From Levilactobacillus humaensis (GTDB lineage: Bacteria > Bacillota > Bacilli > Lactobacillales > Lactobacillaceae), in assembly GCF_024345185.1 (NCBI RefSeq), contig NZ_BROB01000012.1, forward strand, positions 1 to 64,000: a DNA stretch of 64,000 nt. The letters run 5' to 3'. The notes below the pieces were generated by a model. It made no database searches. It was not told where the DNA came from and worked only from the letters and a program-made list of their open reading frames with translations. The position numbers and the translations under genes are program-made. Below are positions 28,272 to 52,709 of this stretch, in pieces. Positions within the stretch are counted from its first letter, which is position 1; the number at the start of each line of letters is the position of its first letter.

Positions 28272-28480
28272 GCTGAGCTTTGGTTGATCTAAGTGGTGCC
28301 GTTAATTGTCCAGTCATGTTGACCCGCGATGACAATGCAGGGGGGAATGTCTGTTGGAGTGTCTGACTTCCAAGTGAAAAGGCCTGCCATCTTCTCCACC
28401 ATAGAACATTCCCATATATAAATTACTTGTTCGGCAACTTGTAGTGAGACAACGCGTACACCTTAGAACCATCTTGATAT
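28272..28480 (-). ncRNA. ssrS: 6S RNA (Lacto-usp type)
   Basis: An untranslated unit of about 200 nt with its own promoter: perfect TATAAT at 28492-28487 (minus) and a terminator just downstream. The RNA ends pair: GGTT-CTAAG-GTG at 28470 and below with CAC-CTTAG-AACC at 28300-28282, the closing stem typical of 6S RNA, which sequesters sigma-A RNA polymerase by mimicking an open promoter. Its position next to rarA matches Bacillus bsrA, and its nearness to usp matches the Lacto-usp motif of lactobacilli. Ends are approximate. Confidence 0.8.
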
Positions 28481-40706: not shown

Positions 40707-40971
40707 GTCAAAAGTGAGTAGACTAATTAAAAATAGCTAGGAACAAGTCAGTAGCGTTTGAGGGATTGTACAGAGAGCCGGGGTGCTGGAAGCCGGTCAG
40801 TCGTGAGACGTGAACGTAGCTTGCGAGCTGATGACCTGAACCAAAAGTAGGGTCATTCCGGAGCACTCTCCGTTAACAAAGAAGTTAAGTGGGGCATAAA
40901 CGCCCAATTTAGGTGGTACCGCGAAGAACTCTTCGTCCTAATTTTTAGGATGGAGAGCTTTTTTGCGTCAC
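40696..40971 (+). promoter_or_regulatory. Valine T-box leader of valS with promoter and terminator
   Basis: Promoter TTGATC (40696) -17- TAGACT (40719). The leader shows the T-box elements in order: AGTA box, AGAGAGCCGGGGTG distal stem, a specifier loop in which the codon GTA (40816-40818) follows GAAC, and the T-box AGGTGGTACCGCG (40911-40923). The variable base T fits a tRNA with discriminator A, as tRNA-Val has. A 13-bp terminator stem (about 40929-40959) with T6 follows. Uncharged tRNA-Val should stabilise the antiterminator and raise valS transcription. Confidence 0.93.
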
Positions 40972-50088: not shown

Positions 50089-50121
50089 CGTTGTAACCGA
50101 CGGCTAAATTTTCAATAAAGC

Positions 50122-50532
50122 TTGACGGCGATTGAAAAAGATCGTAGTATGTTGTCAATGAATCAATAACGTTGAACAGAAGAGTAGGTCACCAAAGTCT
50201 CAACAGAAAGCCCGGTCGATGGAAACGGGTGTCCTTGGTTAACCGAAACACATCTGTGAGTTGGTCGTCTGAATCTAGTAGGACGACCCGGGGTAGCCCG
50301 TTATCGCTGGAGTTGCTAGCAACTCGCTGAGGTTAGACCAGTGATGGTTTAACAAACAGAGGTGGAACCACGATGTGATCGTCCTCTTAGGTCTACGGAC
50401 CTAAGGGGACTTTTTTATTTTTGTGGCAGCGGGCAACTCCCTGAGTCGGTGTGGCGTGAGCCCATCGAGCACATGAGGTGGAACCGCGGTCGAACGCCCT
50501 CTTGAGAGTTGATCTCAAGAGGGCGTTTTTTA
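50122..50532 (+). promoter_or_regulatory. Partially duplicated T-box leader of the amino-acid ABC transporter
   Basis: Promoter TTGACG (50122) -17- TAGTAT (50145). One stem I: AGTA box, distal GGTCGATGGAAAC segment, and a specifier loop in which CAC (50249-50251, His) follows GAAA, in the same register as the valS GAAC-GTA. Two T-box/terminator modules follow: T-box at 50358-50373 with terminator 50381-50417, and T-box at 50474-50489 with terminator 50493-50532. The second module lacks a stem I of its own. Both T-boxes read TGGA, which predicts a tRNA with discriminator U, whereas bacterial tRNA-His normally has C, so the amino acid is uncertain. Confidence 0.9.
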
Positions 50533-50553: not shown

Positions 50554-51195
50554 ATGAATTATGTGAGTCAAATTTTACCATCGTTAATTTCGGGAACCGG
50601 CACGACGCTGTCGATTTTCTTCTGGACGTTAATTATTTCTGTCCCATTAGGGATCTTAGTGGGGTTGGGGATGATTACCAATTTCAAACCCTTAACCTGG
50701 TTGATTGATGTCTACGTGTGGTTAATGCGAGGAACCCCACTGTTGTTGCAACTCATCTTCGTCTTCTACGGCCTTCCCATTATTGGCATCGTGTTCCAAC
50801 GTTACGATGCGGCGCTGTTCGCCTTTATCTTAAATTACACGGCCTACTTCGCTGAAATCTTCCGGGGTGGCTTACAAGCTATTCCCGTAGGACAGTACGA
50901 AAGCGCGCGCGTCTTACGGCTGACAAATTGGCAGACCTTACGTAAGATCGTCATTCCCCAAGTGGTCAAAATCGTGCTCCCTTCAATTGGTAATGAGGTT
51001 ATCAATTTGATTAAGGATTCTTCACTGGTCTACGTCATTGGTCTGGGTGACCTCCTGCGAGCCGGAAATGTGGCCATGGCCCGCGACGTCACACTCGTTC
51101 CAATGGTGTTGGTTGCCGTTATTTACTTGTTACTCACAGCGGTTTGCACAGTGGTCCTGAAGCGATTAGAGAAGCACTACAGCGCTTGGCGTTAG
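50554..51195 (+). CDS. Amino-acid ABC transporter, permease
   Basis: 213-residue HisM-type permease with five membrane helices. The family entry TTLSIFFWTLI and the ATPase-contact EAA-type loop (ESARVLRLTNWQTLRKIVIPQ) are present. The ATG at 50554 follows GAGAGGATG; a longer frame would start inside the T-box terminator. First gene of a complete permease-ATPase-binding-protein importer. With a His specifier it would correspond to the predicted HisXYZ transporters of Lactobacillales. Confidence 0.92.
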   Translation: MNYVSQILPSLISGTGTTLSIFFWTLIISVPLGILVGLGMITNFKPLTWLIDVYVWLMRGTPLLLQLIFVFYGLPIIGIVFQRYDAALFAFILNYTAYFAEIFRGGLQAIPVGQYESARVLRLTNWQTLRKIVIPQVVKIVLPSIGNEVINLIKDSSLVYVIGLGDLLRAGNVAMARDVTLVPMVLVAVIYLLLTAVCTVVLKRLEKHYSAWR

Positions 51196-51212: not shown

Positions 51213-51848
51213 ATGCTAGAACTTAAAAACATTACGAAAAGATTTGCCGGTAAATTAATCTTGGATGGCGTGAACTTAACCGTTAACGATGGTCAGATCC
51301 TCACCATCGTCGGGCCTTCCGGTGCCGGTAAGACGACTCTGTTACGATGTATCAGTGGTCTGGAAGAAACCGATAGTGGGGACTTCTTCTTAGACGGCCA
51401 GCCCTTCAATCCCGTCACCAACCGCAATAACGACACGGTGATTGGCGTGGTCTTCCAAGACTTTCAACTGTTTCCTAATTTGACGGTGCTTCAAAACGTG
51501 ACACTGGCCCCAACCATGGTGCTTAAGCAGAGCAAGGCCGAGGCCGAAGCCACTGCGCAACGGTTGTTGAAACAACTGAACCTGGATGGTAAGGCAGATC
51601 TGTATCCTTACGAATTATCCGGGGGCCAGAAACAACGGGTGGCCATTGTGCGGGCATTGGCCATGCGGCCTAAGCTCCTGTGCTACGACGAACCCACGTC
51701 GGCGTTGGATCCAGACCTACGTAAAGAAGTAGAAGAGATTATTTTAAAACTGAAGGCCGAGGGCATGACTCAGATTGTGGTCACCCACGATATCCCATTT
51801 GCGGAATCGATTGCCGATCAGATGTTACGGGTAGAAGCGAAGAGTTAG
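51213..51848 (+). CDS. Amino-acid ABC transporter, ATP-binding protein
   Basis: 211-residue ABC ATPase. Walker A GPSGAGKTTL (near residue 34), Q-loop, signature LSGGQKQR, Walker B LLCYDEPTSALD and the H-loop (VTHD) are all intact. Slightly shorter than GlnQ-type relatives (about 240). AAAGGGTGA ribosome site. Powers uptake through the adjacent permease. Confidence 0.95.
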   Translation: MLELKNITKRFAGKLILDGVNLTVNDGQILTIVGPSGAGKTTLLRCISGLEETDSGDFFLDGQPFNPVTNRNNDTVIGVVFQDFQLFPNLTVLQNVTLAPTMVLKQSKAEAEATAQRLLKQLNLDGKADLYPYELSGGQKQRVAIVRALAMRPKLLCYDEPTSALDPDLRKEVEEIILKLKAEGMTQIVVTHDIPFAESIADQMLRVEAKS

Positions 51849-51860
51849 GAGTGAGTTACC

Positions 51861-52709
51861 ATGAGAAGAAAATTCGGACGCTGGGCAGTGTTGCTCACGG
51901 TACTGCTGACTCTGGGCACGACGTTGGCCGGCTGCGGTCAGTCTGCTAAACAGGCCGATACGCGCGATACCTGGTCACGGATTCAACGGCGAAAAAAGGT
52001 GGTCATTGGCCTTGACGATAGCTTCGTACCGATGGGCTTTCGCCAAAAGAGTGGGAAGCTGGTCGGCTATGACATTGACCTCGCCCGGGCCGTATTCAAA
52101 CAATACGGGATCAAGGTTGATTTTCAAACCATTGACTGGTCCATGAATGCCACGGAGTTGCGCAACGGCACGATTGATTTGATTTGGAACGGGTATTCAA
52201 TCACACCGGAACGGGCGAAGAAAGTGGCCTTCTCGCGGACGTACTTGAACAATGACCAAGTATTGGTTACGTTAAAGAAGAGCGGCATTAGTAGCTTTGC
52301 CGGGATGCAGGGCAAGGTTCTAGGCGCGCAAAGTGGTTCCTCCGGCTACAATGATATTGAGGATTATCCCAAGGTCTTTAAGAACCGGATTAAGAATCAC
52401 GCCGCTGTCCAGTATGATTCCTTTACCAACGCCTTCATCGACCTGAACGCCGGTCGGATTCAAGGCCTGCTCATCGACAGCACCTATGCCAACTACTACA
52501 TTAAGCACCAACAGCATCCTGAAGACTTCAAGGTTACCGTGGGGAGCTTCCCTAAGGAACAATTTGCGGTGGGGATGCGTAAAGGGGACGTGACCCTTCG
52601 GAACAAAATTAACCGGGGGTTAGCCCGAACTGCTAAGGATGGTCAGCTAGCCAAGATTAATCAAAAGTGGTTTGGTGGAAACGTGGATACACCATTACTG
52701 AAAAAATAA
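51861..52709 (+). CDS. Amino-acid ABC transporter, substrate-binding lipoprotein
   Basis: 282-residue SBP family 3 protein. A lipoprotein signal peptide ends in LAGC (cysteine near residue 26), anchoring it to the outer face of the membrane. The mature part starts the fold with KVVIGLDDSFVPMGF and contains YDIDLARAVF and the ligand-contact region near DLIWNGYS. Polar amino-acid binding is expected; the substrate cannot be read from sequence alone. A weak GGGTCC/GGGCCC hairpin with TTT follows. Confidence 0.94.
   Translation: MRRKFGRWAVLLTVLLTLGTTLAGCGQSAKQADTRDTWSRIQRRKKVVIGLDDSFVPMGFRQKSGKLVGYDIDLARAVFKQYGIKVDFQTIDWSMNATELRNGTIDLIWNGYSITPERAKKVAFSRTYLNNDQVLVTLKKSGISSFAGMQGKVLGAQSGSSGYNDIEDYPKVFKNRIKNHAAVQYDSFTNAFIDLNAGRIQGLLIDSTYANYYIKHQQHPEDFKVTVGSFPKEQFAVGMRKGDVTLRNKINRGLARTAKDGQLAKINQKWFGGNVDTPLLKK

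Follow-up and report, generated by a model that had tools for sequence, protein, structure and literature searches.

The leader at positions 50122-50532 of the window (the whole 64,000-nucleotide stretch of Levilactobacillus humaensis DNA analysed here) raises the question of how a single tRNA-decoding arm can serve two consecutive termination decisions, and of which tRNA it reads, its specifier codon and T-box sequences having been predicted to disagree. By its sequence the leader is a T-box riboswitch of the partially tandem type with a CAC specifier, whose response to tRNA is predicted. Our reading, to which we give a probability of roughly two in three, is that of a His-specific partially tandem T-box in which strand exchange would let one stem I serve first one discriminator and then the other.

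Organization of the leader

All features of the leader and of the genes that it precedes lie on the forward strand. A sigma-70-like promoter, recognised by consensus match only (TTGACG-17-TAGTAT, 50122-50150), is followed by one copy of stem I, the tRNA decoding arm (50163-50275 in the Rfam alignment, the 3' edge being approximate). The whole Rfam T-box model RF00230 matched 50163-50389 at 108.9 bits, above its gathering score of 93. In the register of this alignment the specifier loop reads GAA-A-CAC-A, which places the His codon CAC at 50249-50251 as had been predicted; in the same register, a T-box elsewhere in the window with one module and the core UGGU (40730-40943, forward strand, 121.5 bits) reads GUA (Val). 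The motif CCCGUUA at 50297-50303, in the stem IIA/B region, is one that we take to be the F-box. This name also finds support in the accessible part of PMC7583486.

The F-box is followed by a hairpin, X-loop-X', which precedes module 1. Its 5' strand X, with the first loop base or bases (50309-50317), is the partner common to X' (50319-50325, directly 5' of module 1) and to a lone strand X'' (50432-50440) that precedes module 2 and can form nine pairs with 50309-50317, one of them G-U. The discriminator of module 1 (50327-50388) comprises stem III (50332-50353) and an antiterminator (50358-50387) with the T-box UGGAACC (50363-50369), and terminator 1 occupies 50381-50410 with a U-tract to 50416. 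The discriminator of module 2 (50441-50503), without a stem I of its own, likewise comprises stem III (50446-50468) and an antiterminator with the T-box UGGAACC (50479-50485), followed by terminator 2 (50492-50528, with a U-tract to 50534), which is predicted to be strong (-28.9 kcal/mol). Antiterminator and terminator overlap at 50381-50387 in the first module and at 50495-50501 in the second and are, by sequence, mutually exclusive in each. The terminator scan found three terminator-like sites against 0.5 expected, the third, at 50089, being unrelated.

The original prediction thus stands as to the single stem I, the two antiterminator/terminator modules and the UGGA core of both T-boxes (50363-50366 and 50479-50482); its spacing of about 90 bp holds only if measured between other points, the T-boxes starting 116 bases apart. 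It was also correct in giving the second module no stem I, since the 24 bases between the first U-tract and module 2 (50417-50440) are too few to hold one. The leader accordingly lacks the second stem I of a complete tandem T-box and has the layout of a partially tandem one, with two complete discriminator/terminator units behind a single stem I.

Downstream lie a HisXYZ-type amino-acid ABC permease (BPD_transp_1, 50554-51195), an ABC ATPase (51213-51848) and a solute-binding protein of family 3 (51861-52709), whose domains (PF00528, PF00005 and PF00497) bear out the predicted amino-acid ABC importer. Among the matches listed for the importer proteins no substrate-naming NCBIfam model reached its cut-off, so that histidine as the substrate, the other half of that prediction, is read from the specifier.

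Detection and conservation of the second module

Given alone to the Rfam model, module 2 scored 12.1 bits (E 0.82) over model positions 185-216 only. We built a covariance model, R1, from first modules only, using 26 of 36 candidates (that of L. humaensis included) and leaving out three identical genus copies, three near-duplicates and four badly trimmed sequences; 93.1% of the pair cells of this training set were standard, and 15 of its 19 pairs showed changes on both sides. Under R1, module 2 reached 51.4 bits (E 1.1e-9), compared with 71.3 bits for module 1, itself among the training sequences. The weak Rfam signal of module 2 may explain why an RF00230-based survey reported mostly single T-boxes before his genes and, in five Enterococcus species, tandem ones upstream of the his transporter (PMC9413887, as far as its accessible part goes).

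Of 20 other T-box loci in the genome, 19 gave one module match each with R1 and one (L002) gave none, a single-module verdict limited by the tuning of R1 to His modules. A strict double-module sequence pattern had this leader as its sole match in the genome. Alone among the 19, L009 (G000:C1:66886-67071, minus strand) gave an extra R1 match (13.3 bits, E 0.56); this single T-box aligns with GAC (Asp) and UGGU, not with a His codon, and the protein encoded after it is presumably HisS-like.

The permease is present in all 35 genomes of the genus and in 135 of the 151 genomes of the family. We read 139 leaders, namely those of the 35 genus members and 104 of the 129 permease matches outside the genus, the other 25 not having been fetched. 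At an E-value threshold of 1e-4, two modules were found in 91 leaders, one in 44 and none in four; two-module leaders occur in 20 of 35 genera and, within the genus, in 35 of 35 members. The decay of module 2, which the original prediction proposed to judge from orthologous leaders, is dismissed on this last count. A strict T-box regular expression had suggested that the module was absent from 12 of the 35 genus leaders; these have a variant core with stem III and a terminator, and the covariance model found the module in all 35. The second T-box core in the 12 (L083 and L098, for example) is GGTGGNACAGCG and not GGTGGNACCGCG, so that the conserved ACC is altered in part of the genus.

Of 295 genomes of the order, 32 matched the strict double pattern, each at one place, and the reversed control gave no match. 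All 30 of these doubles that were fetched precede the same permease, and the remaining two sit just 5' of previously located permease sites. This includes 16 of 16 matches in a second family, f3, whose leaders, having been picked by the pattern, are uninformative on frequency. Together with the 91 of the first family they make a set of 107 double leaders, in 104 of which the modules start 100-136 bases apart. Stem III, the T-box bulge and the antiterminator of module 2 are retained across genera.

Complementarity and co-variation of strand X''

The strand X'', which the original prediction had missed, complements X, and in most leaders its complementarity extends into the hairpin loop. Complementarity to the loop is not expected of a copied X', which argues that X'' is not a plain copy of it. 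An uninterrupted X:X'' helix of at least eight pairs is found in 80 of the 107 leaders, and the loop is reached in 85. The longest helices, which cover X and extend over most or the whole of the loop, have 12-13 uninterrupted pairs in g38, g24, g14 and g20, and 16 in g34; the weakest have three in g31 (L141) and five in g8 (L195), while the helix is interrupted in g37 (L133) and hardly uses the loop in g5.

The pairing co-varies. In a permutation test on the 107 leaders, arranged in 21 groups (20 genera, with f3 as one group), X and the loop paired with their own X'' at -10.55 kcal/mol and with permuted ones at -4.36 kcal/mol (sd 0.46), a difference matched in 0 of 20,000 permutations. The loop with two further bases gave -2.83 kcal/mol against X'' and -0.71 kcal/mol when permuted, again with 0 of 20,000, as did each of the positive controls (X:X', stem III-1 and stem III-2). 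This co-variation is the main evidence for the putative exchange. In 106 of the 107 leaders the duplex of X and loop with X'' is stronger than the X:X' hairpin, a count that a wider window reproduced; the means, -12.6 and -4.5 kcal/mol, exclude the cost of closing a loop of about 110 nt.

Predicted folds, which model no pseudoknots, tRNA or kinetics, partly support a switch from X:X' to X:X''. In short segments, the minimum-energy fold before X'' contained X:X' in 98 of 107 leaders; once X'' was made it contained X:X'' in 103, and in 80 when antiterminator 2 was added. With 30, 60 and 110 nt of 5' context and X'' made, X:X'' appeared in 95, 77 and 68 of the 107 minimum-energy folds, and barring the F-box from other pairs raised the last figure to 75. 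In the fold of the full L. humaensis leader, starting at 50163, X:X' persists and the F-box (50297-50302) is paired with 50428-50433; when this leader was folded under constraints, X:X'' formed only if hairpin IIA was fixed and the whole of antiterminator 2 was present. A duplex including the F-box, between 50293-50308 and 50423-50438, has a predicted energy of -18.3 kcal/mol. Most leaders thus give the switch, as modelled, good thermodynamic support, whereas that of L. humaensis is ambiguous. Pairing of the F-box with the bases just 5' of X'' was, by eye, not common to the other genus leaders displayed.

Proposed mechanism and alternative readings

In the mechanism that we propose, X:X' would be paired when the polymerase reaches terminator 1, with discriminator 1 adjoining stem I. 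Uncharged tRNA-His would stabilise antiterminator 1 and allow the polymerase to read past terminator 1. Lying 3' of terminator 1, X'' exists only in transcripts that have got past the first decision, and the second is therefore the only one that it can influence; being complementary to X and part of the loop, X'' could nucleate at the loop and displace X'. Module 1 would then be looped out, where its terminator hairpin may form harmlessly, and, in what would be the simplest role for X'', stem III-2 and antiterminator 2 would take over the place of module 1 by docking on that one stem I. At terminator 2 an acceptor end would be tested a second time, whether that of the original tRNA or of one that has replaced it. 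Expression would then require two consecutive uncharged readings, which may reduce leakage, sharpen the response and reward sustained starvation. Displacement in the nascent RNA, the handover of the tRNA and the regulatory benefit are what we infer from the pairing; that serial terminators give a tighter or stepped response, as also predicted originally, is plausible.

Two attenuators might instead act in series with no physical exchange, module 2 being a terminator, constitutive or weakly responsive to tRNA, whose sole effect is to lower basal expression. The strength of terminator 2, the lower R1 score of module 2 (51.4 as against 71.3 bits) and the unconstrained full-leader folds of L. humaensis, in which X:X'' is not favoured, all speak for such an arrangement, which we nevertheless regard as unlikely: the stem III, T-box bulge and antiterminator 2 kept across genera would be needless for a plain terminator, and X'' co-varies with X and the loop.

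That module 2 is a duplication, recent or repeatedly homogenised, now decaying or neutral, with X'' a mere copy of X', appears very improbable. X'' does resemble X' and occupies the matching place before stem III-2, and a duplication control in which stem III was paired across modules gave values slightly above chance (-2.84 against -2.17 kcal/mol, 31 of 20,000 permutations, and -3.11 against -2.33 kcal/mol, 4 of 20,000); cross-pairing that is weak yet above chance indicates that some copy similarity between the modules persists. The stem III arms have nonetheless largely diverged between modules, and the module is kept throughout the genus. On its loop side, moreover, X'' is complementary rather than copied: as group means, the loop bases opposite X'' are complementary in a fraction of 0.86 (chance about 0.375) and copied in 0.29 (chance about 0.25).

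Specifier, T-box and base 73

The predicted conflict turned on the fourth T-box base. The one tRNA-His(GTG) gene found in the genome matches the specifier CAC and has G-1 and C73; C73, with a G at -1 able to pair with it, was present in all 23 tRNA-His loci that could be parsed (of 30 fetched, own included, seven were unparsed). The prediction that tRNA-His ends in C73 was therefore accurate, and UGGA does not pair with this base. The predicted disagreement loses its meaning, in our view, given that within the tRNA C73 should be paired with G-1, which would leave the fourth T-box base without a free partner in the mature tRNA. TBDB exempts His T-boxes from discriminator matching because C73 of tRNA-His is paired with G-1, so that, as far as the accessible part of that resource goes, the mismatch is a recognised His exception and pairing with base 73 does not define His T-boxes.

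Base 73 of the tRNAs of the genome, read by eye, is A in tRNA-Thr(UGU), G in tRNA-Asn and U in tRNA-Thr(GGU), Gly and Cys. A shift of the specifier by one base to ACA (Thr), as suggested originally, would need tRNA-Thr(UGU), whose A73 would want UGGU, the Thr tRNA with U73 being the GGU isoacceptor; a shift to AAC (Asn) would need tRNA-Asn with its G73. Nor did the genome provide the U73 tRNA reading the aligned codon that would have reconciled the two, the reader of CAC having C73.

The fourth T-box base itself varies: it is A in 90, C in 11, U in six and G in none of the 107 first modules, A in 52, C in 39, U in 14 and G in two of the 107 second modules, and A in 23, C in six and G in 15 of the 44 single-module leaders. 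UGGG, which would match C73, is thus found in 15 of 44 single-module His leaders and in 2 of the 214 modules of double leaders, a difference that may be phylogenetic. The specifier of the 107 double leaders, as read by regular expression, was CAC in 103, CAU in one and unmatched in three; such expressions left 35 of 151 leaders unread in one version and 13 of 151 in another. A switch of dual or wrong specificity, in which a second tRNA (that for Thr, for example, or one with U73) would act beside tRNA-His, is scarcely credible as a reading of the mismatch, for although UGGA would pair with the U73 of tRNA-Thr(GGU), Gly and Cys, CAC prevails among the double leaders, the tRNAs reading CAC, ACA and AAC carry C73, A73 and G73, the fourth base varies between A, C and U in module 2, and TBDB makes its exception for His.

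Relation to known systems and a second instance

The L. humaensis leader shares with the transcriptional T-boxes of RF00230 a stem I with specifier, stem II and F-box, stem III, an antiterminator with a UGGN bulge and a competing terminator, and differs from them in having two discriminators on one stem I together with the exchange strand X''. The abstract of Vitreschak 2008 reportedly names a class of T-boxes with duplicated terminator-antiterminator elements. T-boxes of the partially tandem kind have been described before, and the accessible part of PMC7583486 calls the way in which they act unknown; they have the same single decoding arm and two antiterminator/terminator units, to which the co-varying exchange strand is added here. 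The tandem T-boxes of Enterococcus his transporters resemble our leader in gene type and serial control and are called tandem riboswitches in the available portion of PMC9413887. Tandem riboswitches, as treated in the accessible parts of PMC9481103 and PMC12452182, likewise take serial decisions on one transcript, each platform having its own aptamer or several aptamers sharing one platform, whereas here one aptamer has two platforms; a layout in which one aptamer drives several successive decisions was not found in those parts. No description of an exchange strand in a T-box was found in the openly accessible literature, a comparison outside which lie Vitreschak 2008 and Gutierrez-Preciado 2009.

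From the exchange strand follow predictions as to the strand by which module 2 is joined to stem I, the moment of the switch and the compensatory changes that should restore it. The exchange strand makes the mode of action of partially tandem T-boxes testable by a few point changes, and it suggests how one aptamer could drive several successive decisions.

Outside the order, the double pattern was found in six genomes among 240 sampled from the class, another genome giving two matches of the reversed control. A further 18 double loci, of narrower spacing, were found in 18 of 41 genomes of the family f14. Wherever the regular expression could read the specifier codon of these loci (L240-L245 and, in f14, L276-L293), it was UUC (Phe) or UAC (Tyr). 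Sixteen of the 24 precede a protein with the motif AGPCSVE or SGPCSVE, which we take to be DAHP-synthase-like; the protein after L245 is presumably an NSS-like transporter. Some genomes carry two such Phe/Tyr double leaders.

In these leaders the partner of the strand 5' of T-box 2 is the 5' strand of stem III-1 together with its loop, the own pairing having -20.9 kcal/mol against -17.1 kcal/mol when permuted (0 of 20,000 for the 24 loci, relatedness being ignored). L277 departs from this, stem III of its module 2 being local. Phe/Tyr T-boxes elsewhere thus seem to share stem III in a similar way. We lean, on the whole, towards a general RNA design that evolved at least twice, in which one ligand-reading arm would have two platforms swapped by toehold-like co-transcriptional strand exchange, amounting to a kinetic double check of tRNA charging; the exchanged strand would lie 5' of stem III in the His leaders of the Lactobacillales and mostly be stem III itself in the Phe/Tyr leaders (f14 and one of f25).

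Elsewhere in the window, a 6S RNA candidate lies at 28282-28472 on the reverse strand (49.0 bits, the gathering score being 46.4), and a Group II intron domain was matched at 9-85 on the forward strand (45.4 bits).
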